A DNA stretch of 51,547 nucleotides from Hyphomicrobiales bacterium (GTDB lineage: Bacteria; Pseudomonadota; Alphaproteobacteria; Rhizobiales; Beijerinckiaceae). This document shows, piece by piece, positions 10,649 to 30,104 of the stretch. Position 1 is the stretch's first letter. Every line of letters starts with the position of its first letter. The stretch is from assembly GCA_025356415.1 (NCBI GenBank), contig JANXTB010000132.1:1-51547 (forward strand), given 5' to 3'. The notes beneath the pieces are model-generated. The model had not been told where the DNA came from. It did no database searches and saw only the letters and a list, made by a program, of their open reading frames with translations. The translations under genes and the position numbers were made by a program.

Positions 10649-11609
10649 TGCGCGCAAGTTCCTGATGCGACATCGGCTCGATCACGAGCCTCAGCCGCGC
10701 CGCGTCCGCCAGAAAAGCCTCGTCCTTCATGGTCTTTTCGAAAGCCGTGCGCATCATGTCGACGCGCTCGGCGGGGACGTTGGGCGGAAGGAAGACGCTG
10801 CGGCCGAAGTCCGATTCAGCTGACAGGAATTCAGCGACCTGGCGCTGCACGGGGTCCTTGATGAGTTCAGCCAGCGTCGGCACATCGGGCGCGCTCGGCT
10901 CGCGCGTGATCGAGGCGAAGACGATGGGCTTGATGCGCCCGTCAGCAATCGCGTCCGGCATGGCGAGCTGCACGCTCACCCATGACGCGCCGCGTCCCTC
11001 GATCTCGCCGCGCTGCATGGCGAGGTTGAGATCGGCCGCGCCTTTGTAGCCGGTGACGATCTTGAATTTGGTGCCGAGAAACTTGTTCATCAACGCGGGC
11101 ACGATGTAGGTCGGCGAACTCGGGCCCGTCGCGCCGATGATGACTTCGTTGGTCTTGGCTTCTTCGATCGTCTTGGCTTTCGCCGTGTGCCAGATCGACA
11201 GCATGTTGCGCACCGGCGCCATATTGCCGAGCCACAACCATTCGCGCGCATCGTATTTCGCAAATTGCGGCTGCAGCAATTGATTGAGCACAATGGTCTG
11301 CTGCGTCATCGCCATGGTGAGGCCATCGGCAGGCATGTTGCCGCGCACCGAATTGGCAAGACCGAGCCCACCGGATTCGCCGCCAGTGTATTTGATGATG
11401 ATCTTGGGCCGCTCGGGAATGTATTTTGGCATGTGCTCGGCAAGAACCTGCGCATAAGGCCCGAAGCTGCCGCCGGGATCCGACCCCACCAGAAAGGTGA
11501 TGTTCTTGCCGCGATAGAAATCGGACAGGCTGTCGGCCTGCGCGGTCGCTTGCGCAAGAATGCCTGAAGCCATGACGCCGGCGGCGGCCAGCAGATGAAG
11601 TTTCAACAT
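10593..11609 (-). CDS. Tripartite tricarboxylate transporter substrate-binding protein (Bug/TctC family)
   Basis: Signal peptide then FYRGKNITFLVGSDPGGSFGPYAQVLAEHMPKYIP. Confidence 0.85.
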   Translation of the reverse strand: MLKLHLLAAAGVMASGILAQATAQADSLSDFYRGKNITFLVGSDPGGSFGPYAQVLAEHMPKYIPERPKIIIKYTGGESGGLGLANSVRGNMPADGLTMAMTQQTIVLNQLLQPQFAKYDAREWLWLGNMAPVRNMLSIWHTAKAKTIEEAKTNEVIIGATGPSSPTYIVPALMNKFLGTKFKIVTGYKGAADLNLAMQRGEIEGRGASWVSVQLAMPDAIADGRIKPIVFASITREPSAPDVPTLAELIKDPVQRQVAEFLSAESDFGRSVFLPPNVPAERVDMMRTAFEKTMKDEAFLADAARLRLVIEPMSHQELARITAKVVASPKEVVELAKF

Positions 11610-12777: not shown

Positions 12778-12939
12778 AGCAATTCAGGCGCCCAAAAGCA
12801 TCCGCTGCGCCGCGGCTCATGCGTCACAGCGAGGGTCGAAATTTAACCTTCCGGCGCAAGCGTCACAAAAGAGGTTGCAATTCCTTCTTAGACTGAGCAA
12901 TTCTATCAGCAGTTTCAGATTCTTGCTGGAGTGCTAGCC

Positions 12940-15207: not shown

Positions 15208-15228
15208 GGCTTGGTGGAGCTGAGCGGG
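15208..15228. repeat. attL-type direct repeat (copy of tRNA-Ala 3' end)
   Basis: GGCTTGGTGGAGCTGAGCGGG, identical to 30025-30045. Confidence 0.9.
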
Positions 15229-15552: not shown

Positions 15553-16554
15553 ATGGGTCTCACAGATGACGTCGTGAAGCTGGGAGAAGCGCGAACCAAG
15601 AAGCTGGGCTACGCCTCCCCTGTCGCTCTACAAGGAGTGACCAAGAAGCGGATTGTCGAAGTGCTCCGTCGGTTAGACCTCGCGCAGAACGCCGATCTGA
15701 TCGACGCCGTGTTTGCTCTCCTCGACAATGAAACGGACAGCTGGTTCGCAAGGGCTCCCCGCGGTGCTCGGTTCTGCGATGGGGCTACCACCGCTCACGT
15801 CGGTTGCCATGTCGGTATCTTGCAGCGCAATGGCACGAAGCTCGATCGAGAGGGCAGGGATTATTGGATTAAGCCTCTCCGAGAGCTTGGAGGCATTGAG
15901 GCAATCACGCTTCATGAAGGCGAGTTCATTGCCGGGCACGTCAAGGCCAAGTCGCCAAACTCTTGCTACCGACTTGATGAGGGCTTGAAAGCTGTCTTGA
16001 CTGGTCGAGATGCAGAATGGCCGAAATTGCTGACTGAATGGGCGAGCCGAGACGCAGCGCGGACGCGCCGTGAATTTCAAGCGCAAGCCGCCGACGCGGC
16101 AAGATTGCTGGTAGATAGCGGCCATAGCGACCTGATCGCTGCCTCGATCGAGGTATACGCTAAGCGGTTCCTCCCCGAATACCAAGTCATCTACGTGGAT
16201 GATGGGGACGGTGACCGGATCACTGTCGCGGATCGCAATCGGTTTAAGGACGCGGGAATTGAGATCACGCTCGATGATGGGATGCCAGACGTTCTATTGT
16301 GGGACCCCGGAACGGACATGCTTTGGGTTATCGAAGCTGTCACGAGCGATGGCGAAGTGGACCTTCACAAGGTGACACAGCTCAAGCGGCTGGCGGAACG
16401 ATCCGGTAAAGCGGGTATCCAATTCACCACAACGTATCGAACATGGAAAGACGCCGCCGCGCGCCAGGGTGCTCACCAGAACATCGCAGTTGAAACTTAC
16501 ATCTGGATACAGGCGGACCCAGCAAAGCACCTACTCGTTCAGTCGTTCAACTAA
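15553..16554 (+). CDS. Type II restriction endonuclease, BsuBI/PstI family
   Basis: DMLWVIEAVTSDGEVDLHKVTQLKRLAE matches the BsuBI/PstI catalytic region; N-terminal domain also consistent. Confidence 0.88.
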   Translation: MGLTDDVVKLGEARTKKLGYASPVALQGVTKKRIVEVLRRLDLAQNADLIDAVFALLDNETDSWFARAPRGARFCDGATTAHVGCHVGILQRNGTKLDREGRDYWIKPLRELGGIEAITLHEGEFIAGHVKAKSPNSCYRLDEGLKAVLTGRDAEWPKLLTEWASRDAARTRREFQAQAADAARLLVDSGHSDLIAASIEVYAKRFLPEYQVIYVDDGDGDRITVADRNRFKDAGIEITLDDGMPDVLLWDPGTDMLWVIEAVTSDGEVDLHKVTQLKRLAERSGKAGIQFTTTYRTWKDAAARQGAHQNIAVETYIWIQADPAKHLLVQSFN

Positions 16555-18040
16555 AGTACGAGTTGATGATCCTGTCCAACTCCACTTGGTCCGGCATCTG
16601 CATGCGCACCTGCTCACCGATCGTACAGAGCTGTTGCCGCGTCGGGTAATGCAGGCCGCGCAGGTCAGTCGCATTCACCTGTGTGTGCCCGCTGAACTGT
16701 CGGAAATACTCGTCCACTGCGGTTGAGTTCAGGAACATTGCAAGTCCTCTGGCAAGATCGCCAGGCAGCCCACGGCCTTGCTCATGGAAGTAGTTCAGAT
16801 GGTTTTCGAACCCAACCCAGCTACCGGGAACGGTCGCAGGGTCGAAGATCACGGCTACAAGCCGCCTCTTCTCCTCTTTTGACGTGAACCGCTTCGTCAG
16901 CACGTAGGTCCCGCTTGGCACCACGAGGTCAATAGTGGATTGCGAGAACGCCAATGCATTGTGCTTTCGTCCATTCGGCTTCGGCCATACAACGAAGCCC
17001 TCCTCAAAATGCATTGGGTAGATGAGCGGCACCGCGCCGGGTTGCGCCTCACGTCTCAGATGATCCCGTGCGCGAAAATCAACGACGCGCCCCGTTGACA
17101 CTTTGATCCCGAGATCGGTCAGCTTGCACGGGAGCGCCTGGACACGTTCTGCCAGCGCGCCATCGGCGTCCGATAGAACCAGGTGAATGTAATTATGAGG
17201 ATCACCCGGGTGAACGACTTCCGCGAAGGGGACCTGCCGCCGTGTCACTTCCTCGTCGTCGGGGTTTGCGCTCGAAGTGATCGTCACTTCTGGGGGCTGA
17301 GGCTCTCCCTTCACAAGCCGATAAATGATGTTCTCTTGCAAAACGGCGTCGTCGGCAAACGCCTTCCGGCGAGAACTGTAAACATGGATTTCGCGGAATG
17401 CCGAACTGTCGAGCAATATGCGTCGGAACGGCGTGAAGTATGCGCCGTTGCAAAAGCTGCGCGGCGTGATCGCCACGAGCTGGCCACCCTTACGTAACTG
17501 GCCGAGCGCGACAGCCACAAACGCGGTGTAGAGATTGCTCGTCTCGATCCCGAGCCGCCTTAATGCAGCTCGAGCTTTCGATCCTGAATTGATTTTCGCA
17601 TAAGGCGGATTGAGGATTGCGCAATCGTATGTCGGCTCTTCCCGAAGGAGCGGCTCGCACGAGTGCAGGACGAAATCATCGTGAACAATGCTGAACTGAA
17701 AGTCGATTTCATGGGCCGCGCACTCTGCTGCACAGGCCAACATGGTGATCTCAAGGTGTTTTGCGAGCACGGGATCGATCTCGAATGCTGTAACATCGAT
17801 CGCCCGAGGTCGGGGACTACGCTTGGTCGCCTCCTGCACAAATGCTGCGGTCAACCCGCCAACGCCCGCGCCCGCATCTAAAAGGCGGATTTTGTCAGGA
17901 AGTGGGTCAAACATTGCAGCCATGAACGACGCCACGAGGGCTGGCGTCATATACTGGCCAAGTGAGCTTCGTGTTTTTGGGTCCAACTGCGGCGACACAT
18001 TCAGTCGCGACCGATCCGCATGCTTCAGGGCTGTTGTCAT
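16547..18040 (-). CDS. N6-adenine DNA methyltransferase (Eco57I-like class), partner of the BsuBI/PstI-type enzyme
   Basis: LGQYMTPALVASFMAAMF, LLDAGAGVGGLTAAFV (motif I), CAILNPPYAKI (motif IV NPPY). Confidence 0.9.
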   Translation of the reverse strand: MTTALKHADRSRLNVSPQLDPKTRSSLGQYMTPALVASFMAAMFDPLPDKIRLLDAGAGVGGLTAAFVQEATKRSPRPRAIDVTAFEIDPVLAKHLEITMLACAAECAAHEIDFQFSIVHDDFVLHSCEPLLREEPTYDCAILNPPYAKINSGSKARAALRRLGIETSNLYTAFVAVALGQLRKGGQLVAITPRSFCNGAYFTPFRRILLDSSAFREIHVYSSRRKAFADDAVLQENIIYRLVKGEPQPPEVTITSSANPDDEEVTRRQVPFAEVVHPGDPHNYIHLVLSDADGALAERVQALPCKLTDLGIKVSTGRVVDFRARDHLRREAQPGAVPLIYPMHFEEGFVVWPKPNGRKHNALAFSQSTIDLVVPSGTYVLTKRFTSKEEKRRLVAVIFDPATVPGSWVGFENHLNYFHEQGRGLPGDLARGLAMFLNSTAVDEYFRQFSGHTQVNATDLRGLHYPTRQQLCTIGEQVRMQMPDQVELDRIINSYFS

Positions 18041-18103: not shown

Positions 18104-19114
18104 TTAAAGGAGGCAAGAGGCGGCGTTTTCCACAAATAGGTTTGCGTCTCTAACGTATCGCGCCACCATCGTGTCGCTGCTGTGTCCAGTCTGCTGCCTG
18201 ATCTTCCATGTCGAGACGCCCGCTTGCGCAGCTGAAGTCACAAGCCCAGCCCTTAAGCTGTGACCGGAAAAACCTGATGGATCGAGGCCAGCTTCAGAGA
18301 GGCGCTGTCGTACAATGATGGAAACAGCTTCTCTTGATAATCTGGCTTCACGAACGTGGCCATGACGATCAACGGGACGGAAAATCGAACCTTGTTTGAT
18401 TTCCGCTTGCGCCAGCCAACCGTCAAGTGCCGTGACCGGGCAATGGCGTGTGCGTCCGAGCGGAATACCAATTCTGCGTCCCACGCCTTCCTGATCGGTC
18501 TTTGACCGGCGGAGCGCAACGACCATGCCCTGCCGGACGCGCTCAATATCGGAGCAGTTGAGTGAGACGAGTTCGGAGCGCCTAAATCCACCCGCGAAGC
18601 CAAGCAGTAGCAGGGCACGATCCCGAACGTCTCTGCGCGAATTGCCCATTGCCCCGAGGACAGCGAACAGGTTCTCGCGAAGCAGGGGCTTCGCCTGCGT
18701 CTGCGCCGTCCCATGTTCGCGGCGAATGCCGCGCAGCGTCGCGCGGACCAGAAGGGACCTCGTCGGGCTCGCCAACCCACATGCTCCATGAGCGACAGAG
18801 ATCGCCGCAAGCCTCCGCGTCAGGGTCGCAACTGCGAGGGTCCCGGCATGCGCGGAAAGATAAGAAGAAACTTCCGTGGCGCTGGCGGGGACCGTCCCTC
18901 CCCAAGCCTCAAAGTGCGCAAGGTCAGCTCGATAAGCGACGCGGGTAGCGGGCGCGATCCCCGCCCGGACATAGTCCTCAACGCCCTTTGGGCAATTAAT
19001 TGCACAACCCTCGATGCCGAGTTGGCGTGGCGCATGAGTTCCGATCCTGTCCGCCAGCAAGTTTGTGGCCTCCGATAAGTGAAGGTTATCGCGGGTTAGA
19101 CGATCATCTGTCAT
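18104..19114 (-). CDS. Tyrosine recombinase / site-specific integrase
   Basis: FAGGFRRSELVSL (Arg box), GFSGHSLRAGLVTSAAQAG (HxxR), QTGHSSDTMVARYVRD (H...Y). Confidence 0.92.
   Translation of the reverse strand: MTDDRLTRDNLHLSEATNLLADRIGTHAPRQLGIEGCAINCPKGVEDYVRAGIAPATRVAYRADLAHFEAWGGTVPASATEVSSYLSAHAGTLAVATLTRRLAAISVAHGACGLASPTRSLLVRATLRGIRREHGTAQTQAKPLLRENLFAVLGAMGNSRRDVRDRALLLLGFAGGFRRSELVSLNCSDIERVRQGMVVALRRSKTDQEGVGRRIGIPLGRTRHCPVTALDGWLAQAEIKQGSIFRPVDRHGHVREARLSREAVSIIVRQRLSEAGLDPSGFSGHSLRAGLVTSAAQAGVSTWKIRQQTGHSSDTMVARYVRDANLFVENAASCLL
18992..19009 (+). repeat. Island repeat copy GCAATTAATTGCACAACC (inside the second integrase gene)
   Basis: 18-nt exact match to 26866-26883. Confidence 0.85.
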
Positions 19115-19671
19115 CGCGCTTTCCTCGCCAGCCGGAGCGCCTGTGCCCGGTAGGCCATCGCTAGACGCTGTTCGCGCGAGGCTAGGAGATCGGCGTCGGT
19201 CTGTCTGGTCATGGCGAGCAGTCGATCTTCGGTTTCGCACTGCCGTTCAAGCGAGCCGTCGCGCCGGATGTGGCGAACAGGAAACAGCTGGTCATCGAGG
19301 TAGCGGGCGAGGAGCAGGAAGCGGTGACACTCGCAAGGCTCGCCCTCGGAGCACATCAGCGCCACACGCGAATGATCAGCCATGTCCTGGCATTGTTCCA
19401 AGGCCCGCTGAAACGCGGGACGGGCGACTGCTTGTTCGTAGTCGTGAGCCTCCCCGGAACTTGAAAGCCCGCCGAGGTCGTCGCCCATCCAGAGATAGGA
19501 AATGCCCGCCGCGTTAAGGGCGGTCCGCAACGCCGGTCGGCTGAAGTGTGGCCACCGGGATCGAGGTCGGGATCGGACGTCGGCGATGACCCCAATTTTA
19601 TGTTGCTGCAAGAGCTTCAGGAAGTCGCTCCAGGCCATCGAGGAGTGGCCTACGCTGAATAGAGGATACAT
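19111..19671 (-). CDS. DUF488 domain protein
   Basis: FSVGHSSMAWSDFLKLLQQHKIGVIADVRSRPRSRWPHFS...ALMCSEGEPCECHRFLLLARYL. Confidence 0.9.
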   Translation of the reverse strand: MYPLFSVGHSSMAWSDFLKLLQQHKIGVIADVRSRPRSRWPHFSRPALRTALNAAGISYLWMGDDLGGLSSSGEAHDYEQAVARPAFQRALEQCQDMADHSRVALMCSEGEPCECHRFLLLARYLDDQLFPVRHIRRDGSLERQCETEDRLLAMTRQTDADLLASREQRLAMAYRAQALRLARKAR

Positions 19672-19793
19672 TTGCTTGTCCCGGTTTCGATCCCGAGATT
19701 ATAGTTCAGTTAAAGCTCCGGAAACAGCCGAAACCGTTACGACGCAGCGGTTTTCTGTAAGAGCTGATCCCGAGCCGCAAGCTAGGCTCCTCA

Positions 19794-19811
19794 CACGCAA
19801 AACCTTGCGTG
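19794..19811. other. Stem-loop between DUF488 and response regulator genes
   Basis: CACGCAA-AACC-TTGCGTG perfect 7-bp stem. Confidence 0.5.
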
Positions 19812-19816
19812 CACGC

Positions 19817-20194
19817 CTAGGGCGTTTCGTTCAGCAGGTTTGAAAGGGCGGTGATCAACTGCGCGATTGCAAACGGCTTTGAAAGCATGACGCTCTTTGG
19901 AACACCATTGGCCTTCCATTGCTCCGCGCTATCCCCGCTCATATAGACCACGGCAATGTCAGGCGACAGCTCCCGCGCCTTATGGCCGAGATCGAAGCCG
20001 TTCGGACCATCAATCGGCAACCTAATGTCCGTCAGGAGGGCACTATATGAGGCGCATGCCACATCCAATGCGGCAGCCGCCTCGGCACCCGTGTGAACGA
20101 CCTCCACTTCGAAGCCTGCCTCGCCAAGCCCCTCTTGCAGGCCAAGCGCGATCAGAACCTCGTCTTCTACCAGCAGAATTTTGCCAGTGCTCAT
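19817..20194 (-). CDS. Single-domain response regulator (receiver only)
   Basis: ILLVEDEVLIALGLQEGL...LLTDIRLP...VVYMSGDS...MLSKPFAIAQL. Confidence 0.88.
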   Translation of the reverse strand: MSTGKILLVEDEVLIALGLQEGLGEAGFEVEVVHTGAEAAAALDVACASYSALLTDIRLPIDGPNGFDLGHKARELSPDIAVVYMSGDSAEQWKANGVPKSVMLSKPFAIAQLITALSNLLNETP

Positions 20195-20433
20195 CAGGCT
20201 GCCATGTTGAGGGGCAGCCGTAGAGCTGACTGCGTCACGGTGCGGGAACTTAGGTTCTGTCGTCAAGAACACACAGGAGCTGCCAAAGTTCCAGCTTGCG
20301 TATTCACCCACGCTGACCAGCACCCGGCGCGCCCGTTGTCCTTCCCCGAGCCCGGGGCCTAGTGATTGTATTGCGAAGCTCGCTTGCAAACTCCAGTGCG
20401 CCTAGAGACTAGGTCAGTGGAAGAGGAAGCATC

Positions 20434-21528
20434 ATGGTCGTTGATCCAGCAATCATCCCGCACAACGAGGCCCAGCGCATTGCCGCTGTGAGGCGCTATG
20501 ACATTCTCGACACCCCGCCGGATGGCATGTTCGACCGCATAACGGCCCTGGCGGCTCGGCGCTTTGACGTGCCGATCTCAATCATCAGTGTCGTCGATAA
20601 GGACCGGATATGGTTCAAGTCTCATCACGGCCTTTCGGCCCAGCAGATTGGCCGGGATGCGGGCCTATGCGCCTCAGCGATTTTGTCTGACGCGCCGCAC
20701 GTCTTGAGAAATGCCAAAGTGGACCCGCGCGCGCTGGCCAACCCACTGGTGGCGGGAGACTTCGGGCTTCGGTTTTACGCGGGCGTGCCTCTTCGGACGG
20801 GAGACGGCTTCAACCTTGGAACCATGTGTATCATCGACAAGAAGGCTCGTCCGATCAGCCAGGGCCAGATCGACGACCTCCACGACCTCGCCTCTATCGT
20901 GATGGATCAGCTGGAGCTGCGTCTTTCGGCTCGGCAGGCAGTTTCACGAGCAGAGATCATGGCGCGCGAGATTGACCATCGGGTGATGAACAGTCTTCAG
21001 TTCGTTGCCGGTCTGTTGACGATGCAGAGCAGATCGCCTGGTTTGCTTGATCCTGCGAGCCAGCTTGAAATGGCAGCTCTGCGCGTTCAGGCGGTAGCGC
21101 GCGTCCACCGCCATTTCTATCTTGAGGATACGGGCGAGAATGTTTCATGCCTGACATATCTTCAGCGGTTATGTGCGGACCTGTCAGGCATCCTCGAACG
21201 TCCCATCGAGGTCAGAGGCGACCAAGGAACGATCCCGACAACGCTAATCCAGCCGGTCGGGCTTCTCGTGAACGAACTGGTCACCAATGCCGCCAAGCAT
21301 GGCGATGGGCTCATCAACGTCTCTTACCGGGTGAATGCCAACAAGCGCGTGCTGACAATCTGCGACCGTGGTGAAGGGCTGCCGCATGGCTTCGACGTTG
21401 AGACAGCGCGCACGGGACTGGGAATGCGGGTGATCAGCGCACTGACAAAGCAGCTCAATGGGCAACTCACCGCTACGGTAAATCCTGAGGGCCAGGGAGC
21501 CTGTTTCGTGATCGCCTTTCCGGGTTGA
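20434..21528 (+). CDS. GAF-domain sensor histidine kinase (HisKA_2 type)
   Basis: RRYDILDTPPDGMFDRITALAARRF (GAF), EIDHRVMNSLQFVAGLL (H box), LLVNELVTNAAKHG (N box). Confidence 0.88.
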   Translation: MVVDPAIIPHNEAQRIAAVRRYDILDTPPDGMFDRITALAARRFDVPISIISVVDKDRIWFKSHHGLSAQQIGRDAGLCASAILSDAPHVLRNAKVDPRALANPLVAGDFGLRFYAGVPLRTGDGFNLGTMCIIDKKARPISQGQIDDLHDLASIVMDQLELRLSARQAVSRAEIMAREIDHRVMNSLQFVAGLLTMQSRSPGLLDPASQLEMAALRVQAVARVHRHFYLEDTGENVSCLTYLQRLCADLSGILERPIEVRGDQGTIPTTLIQPVGLLVNELVTNAAKHGDGLINVSYRVNANKRVLTICDRGEGLPHGFDVETARTGLGMRVISALTKQLNGQLTATVNPEGQGACFVIAFPG

Positions 21529-21626
21529 CAACGGGCAGGACTAAACGGTTCGTCCTTTGGACTGACTGTAATGAGACCACGGAGCAGGTTAAAGTGGGCT
21601 CAATTCCGCCAACTCTGGGGTCACCT

Positions 21627-22619
21627 ATGCGACGCGAACTACAACCTTTGGTCTGGGACACGCGACACTTTCGTCTAGCCATCGACGCTGCTGGGGTCGC
21701 GCTTTGGTCCTGGAACGTCGAAAACGATCTGCTGACGATGGATGCGCGTGGTTGCGAACTCTGGGACGTTGCGCACGCAGAGGTCACTTTTGAAGAACTT
21801 TCGTCCCGTATTCACCCAGCGGACCGCGACAGAGTGCGAGCGGGTTTTGCAGCCACACGCGCCATCGTCGGACCCTATGAAATCGACTTCAGAGTCATGG
21901 TTCAAGACGAAGTCAGGTGGATTTCTGCACGCGGTCGCGGAAGCGACGAGGACATTGTTGACCGGGTCATGTTCGGCATCTTCCTCGACGTGACGGGGCG
22001 GAAGCAAGCCGAGGAGAGCCACGAGCTGCTTGCTGGTGAGATGAGCCATCGGGTCAAAAACGTGCTTGCCATAGCCTCAGGGCTGACAACTATGACTTCG
22101 CGAGGAGCGGCGACGGCGGCGGACATGGCGCGCGAACTCACGGGTCGGCTGAGTGCGCTAGGTAGGGCGCACGATCTCGTACGTCCCTTGCCGGGGAGCG
22201 AAGGCAGAGGAACACTCCTTGGCGATTTGATCTCGATCCTCCTCGCCCCCTATGACGACGTAGGTCCGTTCAGCGGTCGTGTTCGTGTCGCCGTCCCCCG
22301 AATGGGCGTGGGCGAAGATGCCGCGACGACCCTAGCTCTGATCATCCACGAGTTAGCGACTAATTCAGTAAAGTATGGCGCGCTCTCCGTAGAAGCTGGA
22401 CTACTCGACGTCGCGTGCGCTGCGGAGGACAGCCAGGTGACCCTCATCTGGACAGAGCGCAATGGGCCTCTTGTTACGCCACCGCAAAGCAAAGGTTTCG
22501 GAGGACGGCTGCTCGAACGCAGTATTCAGTCCAAGTTTAATGGGTCCATAGACTACAACTGGTCACCTGAGGGATTGATCGTCACGTTGCGACTTCAGAA
22601 AGACTGCCTCACTCGATGA
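21627..22619 (+). CDS. PAS-domain HWE-family histidine kinase
   Basis: PAS region (AIDAAGVALWSWNVENDLLTMDARGCELW), EMSHRVKNVLAIASGL, LIIHELATNSVKYGALS, LIWTERNGP; an alternative TTG start at 21525 overlaps the upstream stop. Confidence 0.88.
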   Translation: MRRELQPLVWDTRHFRLAIDAAGVALWSWNVENDLLTMDARGCELWDVAHAEVTFEELSSRIHPADRDRVRAGFAATRAIVGPYEIDFRVMVQDEVRWISARGRGSDEDIVDRVMFGIFLDVTGRKQAEESHELLAGEMSHRVKNVLAIASGLTTMTSRGAATAADMARELTGRLSALGRAHDLVRPLPGSEGRGTLLGDLISILLAPYDDVGPFSGRVRVAVPRMGVGEDAATTLALIIHELATNSVKYGALSVEAGLLDVACAAEDSQVTLIWTERNGPLVTPPQSKGFGGRLLERSIQSKFNGSIDYNWSPEGLIVTLRLQKDCLTR

Positions 22620-22627
22620 GGCGGCGA

Positions 22628-22984
22628 TCAACAAAGCAGACCACCTAGCACTCGCGCGATTGCCCTTACGGTGAAAGGCTTGTGGATCAGCTGTGCGCCG
22701 GGAACGGGTCGCGCGTTGTCGCCAAAAAATCCAGTGATGTAGACGACTGGGAGGTCGGGACGGCTCTCCCGGACCTTCTCTGATAATGTCCACCCGTCTA
22801 AGCCCGGCATCAGTATGTCGGTGATCAGCACATCGAGGTCGTGCAGCCCCGGCAAGTAGTCCAACGCATCCGCCGCGCTCTGCGCCTCAATGACCTCGAA
22901 CCCAAGATCGCCCAGTGCCTCGGCGAGCGCCAATCGCACCAGAGCATCATCATCGACGAGCAGTACGGTGCGCCGAACCGGCAT
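22628..22984 (-). CDS. Single-domain response regulator (receiver only)
   Basis: VLLVDDDALVRLALAEALGDLGFEVIEA...LITDILMPGLDGW...VVYITGF...LIHKPFTV. Confidence 0.9.
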   Translation of the reverse strand: MPVRRTVLLVDDDALVRLALAEALGDLGFEVIEAQSAADALDYLPGLHDLDVLITDILMPGLDGWTLSEKVRESRPDLPVVYITGFFGDNARPVPGAQLIHKPFTVRAIARVLGGLLC

Positions 22985-23088
22985 TTGCGTCTCCCCGAAC
23001 GGTGCACCGATTATTCATAAGGTATGGCAAGGTCAAGCGCGGCCACAATACAGAAGAATTGCGGCCAAACGAAAAAGGAAACGAAACT

Positions 23089-23682
23089 ATGGCTGAAGCA
23101 GTCCACGAACTCGCGCACGAGGCGACCCACAACGCGGCTCACGGTCCAAGCGGGCATTCCAAGCTCATCGGGTTGCTCATCTCTGTCTTGGCGCTGTTCC
23201 TCGCTGTGTCCGAGCTGCTAGGCAATTCCTCCCAGACGGCGGGGCTGGCAATGAACATTGAGGCGAGTAACACCTGGAATTTCTTCCAGGCAAAGACGGT
23301 TCGTCAAACCGCCGTACGGACCGCGATTGAGAACGCCAAGATAAGTGGTGTGCCTACCTCACCCGAACGCGAAAAGCAGCTCGCGGCCTGGCAAGCGAAC
23401 GTCGATCGTTGGGAAAGCGAGCCGAGTACGAATGAGGGGCGCAAAGAGCTAATGGTACGAGCGAAGAAGCTCGAGATAGAACGCGATGCAATGCTCGGCC
23501 AGTACCACGCTTATGAAATCATCTCGTTGATCTTCCAACTCGGAATTGTGCTGGCGTCAGTGTCGCTGCTCTCGTCGATCATGGGTTTTGCGCTCGCCTC
23601 CCTCGGGCTCGGGGTTCTCGGACTGCTGACGCTCGCTGGAACCTATCTGAACTGGCATGTGGTGACGGCGATGCTGCACTAG
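23089..23682 (+). CDS. DUF4337 family membrane protein (island copy)
   Basis: Hydrophobic N-terminus, NIEASNTWNFFQAKTVRQTAV, two C-terminal TM segments; similar to the protein at 41415-41984. Confidence 0.75.
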   Translation: MAEAVHELAHEATHNAAHGPSGHSKLIGLLISVLALFLAVSELLGNSSQTAGLAMNIEASNTWNFFQAKTVRQTAVRTAIENAKISGVPTSPEREKQLAAWQANVDRWESEPSTNEGRKELMVRAKKLEIERDAMLGQYHAYEIISLIFQLGIVLASVSLLSSIMGFALASLGLGVLGLLTLAGTYLNWHVVTAMLH

Positions 23683-23771
23683 ATGACCGCAGGTGAGAGC
23701 CTTTCCCCGCACGTAACTAGGTCGGCTCGGAGCAGCCCGCCTGTACTTTGTTGTGAAGCAGTTTGAGGCTG

Positions 23772-24296
23772 ATGATGCCACGTCCTGACGGCCAACCGCG
23801 CGGTCTGGCGAGGGTGCTGATCAGCATCGTCGTAATCCCGATCCTAATTGTCGATGAGGTCATACGCCCCCTGTATGGGCCGGTGATCAGGGCGATAGCA
23901 CGCTTGCGGCTCCTCGACGCGATCTCTGCACAAATTGCACGCCTACCGCCCTACGGCATCTTATGCGTTCTGGCCGTCCCCTTCATCATCGCCGAGCCAC
24001 TAAAAGTCGTCGCTCTTTACTGGACGGGCACCGGGCACCTGATCAGAGGAGCCGTGACCCTGGCTTTCGCTTACGGCATGAGCTTTATTATCGTCGAGCG
24101 CATTTATGACGCCGGTCGCGACAAGCTGATGCAGATCGCATGGCTGTCTCGCCTCGTTGGGTGGGTCGGCGATTATCGAGACGCTTTCTTAAGTTGGCTT
24201 CGGGCGACCGGGGCATGGCAGCGCGCCCGATCTGTTCTGGCGCTCACACGCGAGCACCTGGGCAAACTAATTCGACGAGGAAAAACACCCCGTTGA
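23772..24296 (+). CDS. Hypothetical membrane protein
   Basis: 175-aa ORF with several hydrophobic stretches. Confidence 0.55.
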   Translation: MMPRPDGQPRGLARVLISIVVIPILIVDEVIRPLYGPVIRAIARLRLLDAISAQIARLPPYGILCVLAVPFIIAEPLKVVALYWTGTGHLIRGAVTLAFAYGMSFIIVERIYDAGRDKLMQIAWLSRLVGWVGDYRDAFLSWLRATGAWQRARSVLALTREHLGKLIRRGKTPR

Positions 24297-24406
24297 GCCG
24301 ACCGAAGGCTCACCCAGTCCACGGAGCGCGAGCATCTCACTGCGAGAGGAAGACGAGATGTTGATGCAAAAGCTGAAGGCCGCTCGCGACTTTCATCAGC
24401 AGGGGC

Positions 24407-24712
24407 CTATCGGAAGCCCATTGGGACCGTGATCGGTGACTTCCCGTCTACGACGTCGCAGAGGTACGAATAAACAGCATCAAAGGTGGCGGCTTTCACT
24501 GCTATTTCGACAGTCATTGCCTTTGGTCCAAGACTACCCATTCCGCTCGGCGAAGCCTTGAAATTTACGGACGCGATTTGAAGCCCCGGTATCGCGGGCA
24601 ATTTCGTTGCGCTTAGCAGTCCACAAGCCTTTTGCTCGGCTTGCTGCGCATATCCACTCACCGGGGCCAAGATCGCAACAGCCATCAGGCAAGCACGAAG
24701 TGTTTTGATCAT
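24407..24712 (-). CDS. Small secreted hypothetical protein
   Basis: N-terminal signal peptide (MIKTLRACLMAVAILAPVSGYAQQ). Confidence 0.5.
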   Translation of the reverse strand: MIKTLRACLMAVAILAPVSGYAQQAEQKACGLLSATKLPAIPGLQIASVNFKASPSGMGSLGPKAMTVEIAVKAATFDAVYSYLCDVVDGKSPITVPMGFR

Positions 24713-24905
24713 CTGTTTTCCTTAGCATTCTATTTCTTCTGCACGAGCGTCATACAAGCAGAAGGTTATCATCCCGTAGGTGGATCGTCAGCTGACTTAC
24801 GCTTCCACGAGCACTATTCATCACCATCACGTGAATAAGTTTCTCCACAGGTCCGTCCTGCTCGAAGCATATATCCTAGGCGCATCCCTGATCGCAGCTC
24901 GACAA

Positions 24906-25763
24906 TCATTCAAATTCCAGAGAAGCGGCGACACTCTCGGCACGTTCTGCCAAAGCACGACGCTCCAATTCGGTGAGGCGCTCTGCATTCGTCTGCAGGC
25001 CCCGACAATTAGAAGAGACACTGGAAAGCTCGACTAGAAACTCTATCGTCTCCCGCTCAAAGCTGGAAGTCCTGCGCGCGAACATATGAGTTCGGCTAAT
25101 CCCCTCAAGACGCGCCTTCAGCTCAATGTTTTGGGCCTTTTCCTCCTGCAGCAGCTGGTGCCAAAACGCGCGCGCTTCTTCTTCGCGCCGAAGTTGTTCT
25201 TCTGCACTCTCACGGGCTATCGCATGGTCCTGCGCTTCTCCACGCGCTTTCGCAGCTGCGGCTTCAGCCTCTTGTACTCGAACCCGAAGGGCTTCTATCT
25301 CGTCCTGCAAGATTTGCCCCGCATCCGTTGGCGGGGGCGGGGGAACAAACGGGCCAGGCGCAAACCTGCTATCGAAGTAGGTCTTGTAAAACCAAACCCC
25401 GAGCTGCCTGGCCATTCTTAGGGAATACAGTGCTTCGCGGTGTGTCCCGTGATGATCGTGAACTGCGGCGTTGCCCAACTTCCTGAGCCGGTGTAGGACG
25501 TCCGCGATCTGTCGAGGAATGACACGTTTCTCGCACAATCGGCAGAGCGTATCTTGAAACCCTTCACCCTGACCAACGTATAGCGCGTGGCGTGCAGCAA
25601 CCAGTTTTGTCAAGTGCTCGGCGTACTGCCGAACCTTGATCAGGCAGGTGCTCGCATCTTCCAAGAAGTAGCGTTCTGCTGATGCACAGAGCTGGCTTAA
25701 CTTCACGTCTGCTTCAATCAGAAATTCGAAATTCGTGCTGTGCAACATCAAAGCACCATCCAA
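24906..25763 (-). CDS. DUF4145-type HsdR N-terminal-like domain plus coiled coil, no helicase/nuclease domain
   Basis: DASTCLIKVRQYAEHLTKLVAARHALYVGQGEGFQDTLCRLCEKRVIPRQIADVLHRLRKLGNAAVHDHHGTHREALYSLRMARQLGVWFYKTYFDSRFAPGPFVPPPPP resembles type I HsdR N-termini. Confidence 0.75.
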   Translation of the reverse strand: MDGALMLHSTNFEFLIEADVKLSQLCASAERYFLEDASTCLIKVRQYAEHLTKLVAARHALYVGQGEGFQDTLCRLCEKRVIPRQIADVLHRLRKLGNAAVHDHHGTHREALYSLRMARQLGVWFYKTYFDSRFAPGPFVPPPPPTDAGQILQDEIEALRVRVQEAEAAAAKARGEAQDHAIARESAEEQLRREEEARAFWHQLLQEEKAQNIELKARLEGISRTHMFARRTSSFERETIEFLVELSSVSSNCRGLQTNAERLTELERRALAERAESVAASLEFE

Positions 25764-25857
25764 CTGGCTAGGTTCAGTGAACGGAGAGCAGTGCCTCGCA
25801 TAGGAGCAAGTCTACGTCGCGCTCCAAGAACCATGAAACGTTCATCACGACCTCTGC

Positions 25858-26769
25858 TCAAGGCCACGGCATCTTATTGAAAGACGCTCTAACGGTCGCG
25901 CAGTCATCAGGCGAGTTCCCCGCCCGCTGCTGGTGAGCATGGTGCTGCATCCCAAGCCCGAAGACGGCGTTCATTCTTTCGCTCTCAGTGCCGAAGGTCG
26001 ATGCGATCCAGGCAATGACCCTTAGCAACGTCGGCTCATAAGCCACCCCGCAACCGAGCCCGCGACCCATGATCACAGAGTAGGAGGTCAGCCGGTCTAT
26101 TTCGCTTGCGCCTACGTTCTTGCGGCCTGCGAAATTAAGAGGCGGGCTGCTCGCCTGTTTTGGCGGCGCACTCTCAGGAGCGTCCCACCGCGTCACGCCA
26201 CTGCCGGAGGTGCCGCCTGAAAGCCGTTCGCTGACGTTATCTTCGACTTGGGAACGCCACTCCGAGGCAGGCAAGCCCCCGCTGTTGGCGTGATCTTCAA
26301 TCCTGGTCAGCTGGGAATTGCATTCGTCCTGCTGAAAAAGGGAGCCTCCGGCTGCCTCTCGGCAACCTTCGTAAACGCCCGCCAAAACGGAAACATCAAC
26401 CGGAGCCGCCCCGGACGGGACCTTGTACTCCGTAAGATAACGGGCGCTCGACCAGCCCTCCCAAATTCCAAAACGGACCCGGCACCAGACATATCCATCC
26501 GAGGTGCACCCGAGGTTCTGGACGCCCGTAGTCAGTGGAGGAATTTCTCCCACTTTTTCGTACCGCACGTCCGGCCCGGATCGGATGTTAAGTGCGTCGG
26601 GACCGCGAACGGCGAAATAGCTTGTCTCCGCGGCCAGGCACTGGGAACCGAGGATCGCCGGAATGATACAGCCGATAATTTTTGCGTGTTGGCGCACGAA
26701 ACCCCCAAGGTGAACGAACTCACCTTGTTGATCTCCTCCTAAGAACGCATGAACCAGCAGAGTAAACAT
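25858..26769 (-). CDS. SH3b-like domain hypothetical protein
   Basis: YFAVRGPDALNIRSGPDVRYEKVGEIPP...YVWCRVRFGIWEGWSSARYLTE; start uncertain. Confidence 0.6.
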   Translation of the reverse strand: MFTLLVHAFLGGDQQGEFVHLGGFVRQHAKIIGCIIPAILGSQCLAAETSYFAVRGPDALNIRSGPDVRYEKVGEIPPLTTGVQNLGCTSDGYVWCRVRFGIWEGWSSARYLTEYKVPSGAAPVDVSVLAGVYEGCREAAGGSLFQQDECNSQLTRIEDHANSGGLPASEWRSQVEDNVSERLSGGTSGSGVTRWDAPESAPPKQASSPPLNFAGRKNVGASEIDRLTSYSVIMGRGLGCGVAYEPTLLRVIAWIASTFGTESERMNAVFGLGMQHHAHQQRAGNSPDDCATVRASFNKMPWP

Positions 26770-26865
26770 TTTTCCGGTCCCGCGCCGGATCGAGGATTAG
26801 TTACCAATTCGTTTCGCGGGTGAGAGGTGCGGAGGGTAAGCGCCGATTTGATCGGCCGCCTCGAA

Positions 26866-26883
26866 GCAATTAATTGCACAACC
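26866..26883 (+). repeat. Island repeat copy GCAATTAATTGCACAACC
   Basis: 18-nt exact match to 18992-19009. Confidence 0.85.
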
Positions 26884-27047
26884 TTTCTCCAGGCATCCTT
26901 GCAGAGTGGAGTACGTCCGAGGTCGTCGGGAGGCCTCACAATATCCCTTCAAAAGCGCATTCTCTGTTTCGTGGCTACTGAAGATGTAACCTGAATATCA
27001 GCCAATCGGCATGCCGACGCACCCGACTGCTCGGCAACTCCTTAGCC

Positions 27048-27065
27048 GCAATTATTTGCACGAAC
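27048..27065 (+). repeat. Degenerate island repeat copy GCAATTATTTGCACGAAC
   Basis: Same orientation as the other copies; few mismatches. Confidence 0.6.
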
Positions 27066-27159
27066 TTAGTTCGACATGGAACGGTGGACGAGCCATATTC
27101 CTTCCGCTCTTCTTTCTCAGACGGCCTGAAGCAGGCGTCAGGCTAATCGGCTCGGGAAG

Positions 27160-27171
27160 TTAATTGCTCAA
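27160..27171 (+). repeat. Partial island repeat TTAATTGCTCAA
   Basis: 12-nt match to 29726-29737. Confidence 0.6.
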
Positions 27172-27178
27172 AGCGGGG

Positions 27179-28195
27179 CTACCCCTTGAACACCTGAAGA
27201 ATGCCAGTTTCGTCAATTGACGACGGCCAATTACACCAAATCGCATCTACGTCCCACCACGGCTTCATATGCGCTTCCAGGTGCTTGCGATACCGGCTGC
27301 GTCGGGCTTGCGGTAGGTGACCAAGCGCAGCCTGCACGCCGACTTGTTGCGCAGACAGTGCGAAGAGCGCCCAAATGTACGGCTTGTCTTCGCCCGGTGG
27401 CGCATCGGGAATGTTTTCAACCATTTTCATAGCTGCGAACGGGTTCGGCAGCAGCTTTAAATCAGAAAGGAGTTTGACGCTGGGCTGGCGGAGGCGACGC
27501 TCGATCCTCACCACCGACTTGCCATGCCACTCTTGGTGCTTCGCGATGCGCTTAGCTTTTTGGGAATAGATGACGGTTTGATTGCCGTCCTTCTTTCCTG
27601 ACGTGTACGTCTCCAAAGTCCCATTGGTGCGCCACTGCTTGGTCGTCGCAAGCTGCTTAGGCAGCAAGAAAAATTCCTCCATGCGTACGCCCGGAACATC
27701 GACCGCAACGTCCAAGCGAGTTATGCGGCCCCTTTCGACGAAAGCATTCCAGCCGCCCTCAACTAAGAGCGACAACGATGCGTGAAGCTCCTCGATGCCC
27801 TTTGAGCCGAGGTCAATAGGAACGAATTCGAGCCGCAGATCGACCCACTTCTTGTGGTGATGACTGTATTGGAGCAGCGGGTAACGCTTTGCATCGGCCA
27901 CGCTCTTCAGCATGATCCGCTTGGCAATTTTGTATTGGCCCCACTTCGACTTCGCATAGGCATTCGGAAAGAACTCGTCGCTCTTCAGCTGCGTCCAGAT
28001 ATTCCCATGCAGAGCGAAGGCGTCGTCAGTCAGGGACGGGCTAAGGATGAGGCTGATCTTGTCGAGGAAGGGTAAGTAGGGAGACGTGTTCTTCGGTCCG
28101 GTGGTTGCGCTAGGATCGCTCTGGTGGGCGTCCATATGGGGGATGGTTTTGTTCTTGTTAGAAGCGCCACCCTTTTTGGGAATTTTGATCAGCAT
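27179..28195 (-). CDS. Putative replication initiation protein (Rep_trans-like / phage-plasmid Rep family)
   Basis: RITRLDVAVDVPGV, TLETYTSGKKDGNQTVIYSQKAKRIAKH, SVVRIERRLRQP follow the pattern of Rep_trans-type initiators; immediately downstream of the integrase. Confidence 0.6.
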   Translation of the reverse strand: MLIKIPKKGGASNKNKTIPHMDAHQSDPSATTGPKNTSPYLPFLDKISLILSPSLTDDAFALHGNIWTQLKSDEFFPNAYAKSKWGQYKIAKRIMLKSVADAKRYPLLQYSHHHKKWVDLRLEFVPIDLGSKGIEELHASLSLLVEGGWNAFVERGRITRLDVAVDVPGVRMEEFFLLPKQLATTKQWRTNGTLETYTSGKKDGNQTVIYSQKAKRIAKHQEWHGKSVVRIERRLRQPSVKLLSDLKLLPNPFAAMKMVENIPDAPPGEDKPYIWALFALSAQQVGVQAALGHLPQARRSRYRKHLEAHMKPWWDVDAIWCNWPSSIDETGILQVFKG

Positions 28196-28217
28196 CCGTC
28201 CGCCCGCAACTCCCAGC

Positions 28218-29939
28218 TCACTGCTTCACGTGTAAGTGGTTCAGGTCGAGTGCTTCATATTGCACGCCGCTGACGTCTTTCTCATAGAGATCGGGGTGCA
28301 GCTTTGACCCGTAGTGGTCACTGGTCGTTGTTCCCTCAGACCAACCGCCCAGGGACTTAACGGCGTCCTCCGAGGCCCCCGAACGCCGAAGAGCATCACG
28401 CCACGTGTGGCGAAAGCTATAGACCGCTTGTCGCGGCTTCATCTGGATCGCCTGGGGAAGATACACATCTCGAAACTGCTTCAGCGCATACGACGCCGGA
28501 TCGCCGTATTGGTTCGTCGCCAGCTTGGGGAAGAGCCGCTGGTCATCCTTCATGCTTCGTCGATCTTCAACGAAGAGAACGAAGCCAGCTCGCTGCACCT
28601 CAGGGTGCAATGGGACCTGTCGGCGGCTTGCCTTGGTCTTCAAGGACTTCTTCGGCAGATTGTCGAGATCGTCTTCATCCGAGGTGGTGGCAATGTCGAT
28701 GAACCACACGCCCTTCTTCGTCTTCTGAAGGTCTCGCACCTGCAGCTGACAAATTTCACGCGGGCGCAGGCCCATGAACAGCATCAGGTGCGGCAACCAA
28801 AACCGCCAAGACTTTTCGGCATTTCGATAGGGCGGCCCACCTAAAGTCGAACACGTCCGGTAGAAGTCCGACTGAAAAAAAGTGATCAGCTGTTCCGAGG
28901 TGAAGGGCAACCGCTTCTCCTGCGCGCTGAGAACATCGCGGACCAGCGGCTTTAGGCGCTCCGCCGGATTGGACGGCAGCAAGCGTTTGTCCACAGCGAG
29001 CCCGAGCAGCTCCTTTAGTGTCGCCAGGTACTGCTGCTGGCTAAGGAACGAGAGCGTCTTCTTGCCCTCCTGATGGCCCCGAAGGACAGCTGCTTCAAGA
29101 CTGAGCTTCGGATAGTGCTTAGTGCGGTTGGACGGGACACGCGCCAGCAAACTGCACGCGGCGCGGCACTGGTCGAAACCGAGGTCCCGAACGAGCGTCC
29201 CGCCCCCAATAATTTCGCAAACGAGCTTTACACTCGCTTTCTGCCTATCGAGGCTCTTCTCGGCGTGGCCGAACGCTTTCCCCTCCTCGGTTTTGTAACG
29301 CATGAACTCTTCGGCTAACGCGGCAAACGTCAGTGGCGGCGGAATTTGCGGGTCGAACAGCGTGTCAAAGAACGTCCGGTCATTTTCGCCAGCGATCACA
29401 GCGAGCCGTCGCCGGTCGATCTCCATTAGGGTCCGCCGCAGGAGGGAGCCCGCTTCCTGATCGGTCAGCCCCACGCTGGCAGGTCCCGCCTCACCCAACA
29501 ACTGCCGTTCAAGGCGGAGGATGCGTTCGTCGGCGCGAACGTCTCCAGGTTCTCGCAAGGATTGAAGGCCGATCTCTACGTCCTTCAGCATTTCGGCGCG
29601 TTCGCCGCCAGTCTCGGGCTGATCGTTTTCAAGGCGCTTAACCATGCGCCCGGTCACCTCTTCGACATAGCGCCGGACGAGTTCGACCGGGTTGGAAAGG
29701 ACAATCTCGCTTGATCCGTGAGCAATTAATTGCTCAAGACCGTGACGCAAATGATCGAATTTGGCGTCCCATTCCACGTCGGCCACATTCAGACGCGCTT
29801 TGGCTTCCTTGAGGCTGCTGGTCTTGAGCGAGTATTTGACCACGGCTTTGCCAAACGCGGTGCGCACGTCGCCGGGCACGCGGCGGTTGTAGTAGTACAC
29901 TCCAGCGCGTCGGAGTAGATGTTCGGGCATCTTGGCCAT
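28218..29939 (-). CDS. Tyrosine integrase adjacent to tRNA-Ala (element integrase)
   Basis: N-terminal MPEHLLRRAGVYYYNRRVPGDVRTAFGKAVVKYSLKTSSLKEAKARL; C-terminal LMLFMGLRPREICQL, VYSFRHTWRDALRRSG, SDHYGSK. Confidence 0.92.
   Translation of the reverse strand: MAKMPEHLLRRAGVYYYNRRVPGDVRTAFGKAVVKYSLKTSSLKEAKARLNVADVEWDAKFDHLRHGLEQLIAHGSSEIVLSNPVELVRRYVEEVTGRMVKRLENDQPETGGERAEMLKDVEIGLQSLREPGDVRADERILRLERQLLGEAGPASVGLTDQEAGSLLRRTLMEIDRRRLAVIAGENDRTFFDTLFDPQIPPPLTFAALAEEFMRYKTEEGKAFGHAEKSLDRQKASVKLVCEIIGGGTLVRDLGFDQCRAACSLLARVPSNRTKHYPKLSLEAAVLRGHQEGKKTLSFLSQQQYLATLKELLGLAVDKRLLPSNPAERLKPLVRDVLSAQEKRLPFTSEQLITFFQSDFYRTCSTLGGPPYRNAEKSWRFWLPHLMLFMGLRPREICQLQVRDLQKTKKGVWFIDIATTSDEDDLDNLPKKSLKTKASRRQVPLHPEVQRAGFVLFVEDRRSMKDDQRLFPKLATNQYGDPASYALKQFRDVYLPQAIQMKPRQAVYSFRHTWRDALRRSGASEDAVKSLGGWSEGTTTSDHYGSKLHPDLYEKDVSGVQYEALDLNHLHVKQ
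29719..29736. repeat. Island repeat copy, perfect palindrome TGAGCAATTAATTGCTCA (inside the tRNA-proximal integrase gene)
   Basis: 18-bp perfect palindrome containing GCAATTAATTGC. Confidence 0.8.
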
Positions 29940-30028
29940 CCCTCATGTGTACCAGTCAGGTACGCCACCGGGGAATGTAAGCCGCTGATTTCTTAGAAGT
30001 CTTGGTTTCCAGCGAGTTAAGCTGGGCT

Positions 30029-30104
<76 letters not shown>

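Follow-up and report, generated by a model that had tools for sequence, protein, structure and literature searches.

What a short palindrome does at several places in one genomic island is the question raised by a 51,547-nucleotide stretch of DNA from a Hyphomicrobiales bacterium (assembly GCA_025356415.1, contig JANXTB010000132.1), here called the window. The island covers 14.8 kb beside a tRNA-Ala(CGC) gene. A sequence-only reading had listed five copies of a repeat built on GCAATTAATTGC, two inside integrase genes and the others beside a gene that it named 'rep', and had offered iterons, Xis or regulator operators, or island-specific partition or silencing sites as explanations. All five copies were found where they had been placed and with the letters given (Table 1). 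The sites are element-specific, conserved and dispersed, and their lineage-specific centres track the genes of a protein family that we call fam0. From sequence comparison we consider it fairly probable that the palindromes are dispersed operator- or partition-like sites of the class TGCAA-YYRR-TTGCA that are bound by fam0. The network probably serves a DNA-binding protein encoded by phages or islands, with fam0 as the candidate.

The exact palindrome was counted three times in the window and 0.00 times in 100 dinucleotide shuffles. Markov models of orders 1-3 predicted 0.04-0.7 copies for the whole genome and 0.0001-0.002 for the island. Simulation of 300 islands gave no palindromic 12-mer with three copies and two instances with two. 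The claim that three exact copies are unlikely by chance was therefore confirmed. Across the 4.62-Mb genome the same three copies were the only ones, so that the motif is not equally frequent genome-wide and is confined to the island; by eye, none had been noticed outside it. Three one-mismatch matches were found outside it (contigs C289, C330 and C368). They look like chance, since no island or fam0 genes were found on these stretches and a reversed control gave two matches. The copy at 27156/27160 has two mismatches and is weak, without significance taken alone.

The palindrome was also found in other bacteria. A collection scan with TTGWGCAATTAATTGC returned mostly AT-rich chance matches; the GC-rich contigs in it had the same palindrome several times within a few kilobases. 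This motif-only search recovered defence-type islands in other alphaproteobacteria and phage contigs. Whole-record counts in the bacterial genomes were only 1-8, and the reversed-pattern control was zero throughout. The copies lay in one cluster each in Methylobacterium jeotgali, Sandarakinorhabdus and Tsuneonella, and in a cluster with a few copies elsewhere in Sphingobium jiangsuense and Rhodoblastus sphagnicola. A relative (52-65% identity) of integrase 2 of the window island was present in the majority of the chromosomal clusters that the motif had located; the sole examined cluster without one was on a short Rhodoblastus contig (C27). For the converse test, the integrase-2 protein was used to search 298 genomes of the order, and the motif was then sought in genomes with relatives. 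Five genomes outside the query had relatives sharing 53% identity or more, and all five had the motif or a close variant, exactly in G188, as GCAATYRATTGC in G027 and G249, and as paired GCACTTAATTGC/GCAATTAAGTGC in G175 and G219. The more distant integrase loci fetched in this test had no motif. The pair in G175 (12821-12874) and G219 (11110-11163) is imperfect and inverted, 42 bp apart, and adjoins the 5' end of integrase 2.

In phages, four IMG/VR contigs of 95.8, 91.8, 71.6 and 50.4 kb held 28, 29, 22 and 21 copies, respectively, where an order-2 model predicts 0.0003-0.001 per contig. The proteins that these contigs have in common with known phages number 22-45 for Rhodobacter phage RcZahn and 11-23 for Stenotrophomonas phage DLP5 (Delepquintavirus). 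RcZahn itself has a mixture of about 19 sites and DLP5 has 28, nearly all GCAATCAATTGC; the sites are palindromic and the DLP5 centre variant is present in both orientations. Aeromonas phage HJ05 has 16 copies genome-wide (TGCAACYRGTTGCA), of the form TGCAAC(C/T)GGTTGCA and once TGCAACCAGTTGCA. The natural specificities comprise TTAA, TCAA/TTGA and CCGG/CTGG centres besides TCTACCCGGGTAGA, and the candidate palindromes of fam0 proteins include TGCAATTAATTGCA, TGCAATCAATTGCA, TGCAACCGGTTGCA and TCTACCCGGGTAGA. The motif is thus specific to the island within its own genome, but it is common to other islands and to phages. The idea that the islands are degenerate prophages was rejected: G304, G306, G305C22 and the window island share no proteins with RcZahn or DLP5.

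Both phages and islands point to selection on the sites as DNA. Between the phage contigs G299 and G303, 21 of 23 alignable sites were perfect, whereas 1.3 were expected at the flank identity of 78.7%. In about ten islands a site lies in frame in the N-terminal coding region of integrase 2, read as GCA-ATY-RAT-TGC (AINC or AIDC). Because the palindromic codons are invariant amid unrelated surrounding residues, this site is conserved at the DNA level and not at the protein level. The conservation in related islands that had been proposed as a check was accordingly found in position for the integrase-2 copy, and it was not established for the other copies. A stoperator network combines many copies far above chance with selection as DNA, and both were observed.

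It is hardly credible that the copies stem from chance or from constraint on a conserved AINC/QLIA peptide and carry no DNA signal. Two window copies do lie in coding sequence with common residues, but they are read in two frames, as AINC in integrase 2 and as QLIA in the DUF6538 integrase, and intergenic copies exist. The invariance of palindromic codons between unconserved flanks speaks against the peptide as well, and so does HJ05, where the centre changes on both sides together (TGCAACYGGTTGCA). The phage copy counts and the positional conservation contradict chance and peptide alike. Chance was ruled out by the shuffles, the Markov models and the genome count, and protein-level constraint by the frames and codons, which refute it for the family as a whole.

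The candidate binder fam0, singled out by genomic position and co-variation, is a protein of about 180 aa with longer paralogs of about 250-600 aa, of which the tested ones match phrog_17202. It turns up repeatedly in the long phage contigs (gp66 in RcZahn, WEV89389 in HJ05), and also in the islands G304, G305 (two genes), G306, G307, G298 (two genes), V48856 and G027, and it is found elsewhere in the genome in G249. Nine phages (G299, G303, G300, G302, G309, RcZahn, DLP5, DLP3 and HJ05) have a perfect site 69-144 bp upstream of a fam0-family gene, which is a longer paralog in the first five. The site upstream of fam0 in HJ05 shares its changed centre with all 16 copies of that genome. A motif-independent test was made with two further genomes, G073 and G139, chosen solely by fam0 homology. 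They carry a different 14-bp palindrome, TCTACCCGGGTAGA, in two and three copies within 3.3 and 4.0 Mb, respectively, and all copies are at fam0 loci, for example 14 bp past the fam0 stop in G073 and about 50 bp past it in G139. One TGCAATTAATTGCA was also present in G139, 3.3 kb from a fam0 gene. The rule that fam0 genes are accompanied by a 14-bp palindrome of their own thus passed a test made without the motif. Scans of viral contigs with fam0 returned only contigs already known, and the plasmid collection gave no fam0 and integrases of less than 60% identity only.

Several further observations bear on fam0 as the binder, most of them against it. It has no Pfam match above the cut-off, no NCBIfam identity and no match to the ParB NCBIfam models. 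Its AlphaFold model is confident and mainly helical (pLDDT 87.5) and gave no significant PDB match in Foldseek; DNA-binding domains of ParB-parS complexes were among the most probable matches (0.35-0.51, E 2-4), which speaks for a binder, but the similarity is weak, a hint and not a membership. For a long paralog the model was poor (57.7), and Raf1, the PDB entry that matched it best, was uninformative. fam0 was not found in G317, G175, G219, G188 and the window island, which carry the motif or a variant, and Vibrio phage 1.215 has fam0 and no clear site upstream of it. Promoter control alone also does not fit DLP5, where 20 sites are intragenic and 8 are intergenic.

According to the reading that we favour, fam0, encoded by RcZahn/Delepquintavirus-like phages and by tRNA-integrating defence islands, would bind the palindromes, autoregulate its own gene and repress or roadblock integrase 2 of the islands. 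In the phages the many sites may jointly silence, organise or partition the genome during a plasmid-like lysogenic state, in the manner of KorB operators or stoperators. DLP5 replicates as a phagemid, and such a state is reported for it (PMC5834331). Of the explanations offered at the outset, regulator operators or partition/silencing sites were the right class, to judge from the conserved DNA, the location in the 5' region of an integrase gene and upstream of the candidate binder, and the dispersal in phages. Nothing was found in support of an Xis operator.

A purely parS-like role, where fam0 coats or partitions the plasmid phage and the island copies are incompatibility or hitch-hiking sites, has perhaps one chance in a few. 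The phagemid replication of DLP5, the intragenic location of 20 of its 28 sites and the ParB-like fold hint are consistent with it, and the DLP5 sites are spaced more evenly than random (coefficient of variation 0.51 vs 0.95, P about 2e-4). However, the regularity is weaker and less clear in the other phages, and the DLP5 sites are enriched between genes (8/28, where 4.9% of the genome is intergenic, P 4e-5). The copies that recur at integrase 2 and at fam0 seem regulatory, and integrated islands need no partition.

For the window island the operator reading has to account for the missing fam0, which was not found there. We suppose that this island lost fam0 and that its copies drifted at the outer base pair. 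The outer T/A is kept in 2 of 6 half-sites of the three perfect window cores, compared with 56 of 60 in other islands and 221 of 230 in phages, and TGCAAYYRRTTGCA has no copy in the genome. Since the island has no fam0 and the outer T/A is mostly lost, the window copies are probably targets without a cis-encoded partner, either relics or sites on which a relative acts in trans, such as one brought by a phage that resides in the same cell or enters it. That they are relics only, decaying without present function in a former fam0 carrier, is quite conceivable, though we hold it to be somewhat short of an even chance. The missing fam0, the drifted outer base pair and the zero count of TGCAAYYRRTTGCA agree with it. 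Against it, the 12-bp core remains perfect in three copies and the 18-mer is identical in two, more than neutral decay would readily leave, and a distant fam0 homolog exists in the same genome. This homolog of 456 aa is the only one in the host genome (C398, 9179-10546, on an 11.5-kb contig), and no recognisable dispersed palindrome was found for it. We regard as unlikely a further reading of the operator code that defence islands and RcZahn/Delepquintavirus-like phages would have in common. In it, phage-encoded fam0 that enters with infection, or disappears on induction, would act on the integrase operators of the islands and so tie their excision, replication or defence to the state of the phage. 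Phages and defence islands would then be in regulatory cross-talk through a DNA-binding family not described before, whose palindrome specificities can be exchanged.

The closest working analogies are KorB and the L5 stoperators. The ParB-family protein KorB is a global repressor of plasmid RK2 that acts at OB sites (PMC11790492). As with KorB/OB, small palindromes would serve one element-encoded protein, here the candidate fam0, at several promoters near and far, and the predicted fam0 fold weakly resembles ParB DNA-binding domains. Unlike KorB, fam0 is too short for a separate CTPase domain and has no ParB or Pfam match, and the sites differ from OB in their 14-bp class, in their number of up to 28-29 per phage genome and in their frequent intragenic location. 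The repressor of mycobacteriophage L5 has more than 20 short stoperators over a temperate phage genome, some of them at places where elongation could be blocked; each is an asymmetric 13-mer that follows the direction of transcription and is recognised by a monomer (PMC9283540). In common with L5, phage genomes here can hold upwards of 20 copies of a short site, but the sites are palindromic without oriented asymmetry, mostly intragenic and common to chromosomal islands. For neither system is membership established, given that fam0 lacks any match to ParB or a CTPase and that the sites, being palindromes, are not oriented. Chromosomal ParB-parS complexes (6s6h, 4umk, 6t1f) likewise have a palindromic site and a possible, modelled similarity to fam0 in the DNA-binding domain; parS, however, clusters near an origin, whereas the sites described here are dispersed. 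P4 and PICI satellites, which respond to helper-phage regulators, resemble the islands in tRNA integration, integrases, defence cargo and regulatory DNA common with a phage group. In contrast to these satellites, the tested islands share no RcZahn or DLP5 proteins, and Pfam, PHROG and PADLOC searches showed no capsid, packaging-interference or capsid-remodelling genes in the islands.

No mention of the motif was found in papers on DLP5, DLP3 and RcZahn, and a literature search with the exact letters gave nothing relevant. Dispersed operators are a known kind; as far as the search reached, the fam0 family and its code, which phages and defence islands share, seem not to have been described before. 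For a phage family of about 95 kb (RcZahn, the temperate DLP5 and DLP3, and relatives), this provides an operator code and names a candidate for its regulator, and a group of tRNA-integrating defence islands is linked to the same code. The testable protein-DNA pair, with its several natural specificities, could serve in studies of specificity changes in silencing or partition by dispersed sites.

Table 1. Palindrome copies and island features in the window
Feature	Position	Strand	Remark
Palindrome GCAATTAATTGC in 18-mer GCAATTAATTGCACAACC	18992-19003 (18-mer 18992-19009)		In integrase-2 coding sequence; in-frame A-I-N-C, codons 38-41; operator-like
Palindrome copy in identical 18-mer GCAATTAATTGCACAACC	26866-26877 (18-mer 26866-26883)		Gap between SH3 gene and 'rep'
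GCAATTATTTGCACGAAC, one-mismatch core GCAATTATTTGC	27048-27065 (core 27048-27059)		Gap downstream of 'rep'
Degenerate half-copy GAAGTTAATTGCTCAA, including TTAATTGCTCAA	27156-27171 (TTAATTGCTCAA 27160-27171)		Just 3' of 'rep'
Perfect 18-bp palindrome TGAGCAATTAATTGCTCA	29719-29736 (core 29722-29733)		5' part of DUF6538 integrase gene
Integrase 2, tyrosine recombinase (PF00589)	18104-19114	-	Gene common to most motif-bearing chromosomal islands
Putative DUF488-like gene upstream of integrase 2	19111-19671	-	Stop overlaps integrase start (ATGA)
'rep'	27179-28195	-	Relatives in islands G304 (44%) and G307 (39%)
DUF6538 + Phage_integrase gene	28218-29939	-	Adjoins tRNA; probable primary integrase
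Outer attachment-site repeat GGCTTGGTGGAGCTGAGCGGG	15208-15228	+	
Attachment-site repeat	30025-30045	+	At tRNA-Ala(CGC) 3' end
tRNA-Ala(CGC)	30029-30104	-	Integration target

As Table 1 shows, two copies lie inside integrase genes as described earlier, and those beside 'rep' lie in the gap at 26770-27178 downstream of it. The most likely start of integrase 2 is the ATG at 19114, which overlaps the preceding stop, and the copy at 18992 is therefore intragenic. The 18-mer of this copy reads GCAINC both in integrase 2 and in a short open reading frame at 26797-26952. It probably represents an extended operator consensus, as no wider similarity was seen between the two.

The location of three of the five copies beside 'rep' had suggested Rep iterons or a replication origin, which we now consider very improbable. 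No tandem array or phasing of direct repeats was found at 'rep' or an origin, G304 and G307 have single distant copies near their rep genes, and the motif occurs in phages and islands where no rep relative was found. The 'rep' protein had no Pfam or PHROG match. Protein searches in the genome contigs, the plasmids and the order gave no relatives, and these were found only in the motif-selected islands.

The window island has the tRNA target, the direct attachment repeats (21 bp) that bound it, and an integrase, as an integrative genomic island does. It holds integrase 2 with its upstream gene, the rep-like gene and the sites. Several islands have the DUF488-like gene ahead of integrase 2, and the motif-rich phages G299 (5755-6255) and G303 (89101-89631) carry it too. 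In G188, a relative of the DUF6538 integrase adjoins tRNA-Ala(CGC) as in the window and has a motif copy inside (C54, 104-2019); integrase 2 of that genome is on C9, a separate contig that may represent the opposite end of a single island.

The cargo of the examined relatives is defence-like. G304 carries RhuM, a Hachiman-like helicase and type I restriction-modification; the last is also found in G306, where a reverse transcriptase lies close by. In the window, a BsuBI/PstI-type restriction endonuclease and an N6-methyltransferase overlap convergently at 15553-18040 as a type II restriction-modification system. The DUF4145 protein at 24906-25763 is like the N-terminus of type I restriction subunits (PADLOC) and resembles part of an open reading frame of 1133 aa in Rhizobium laguerreae G317; its gene is possibly a truncated defence gene.

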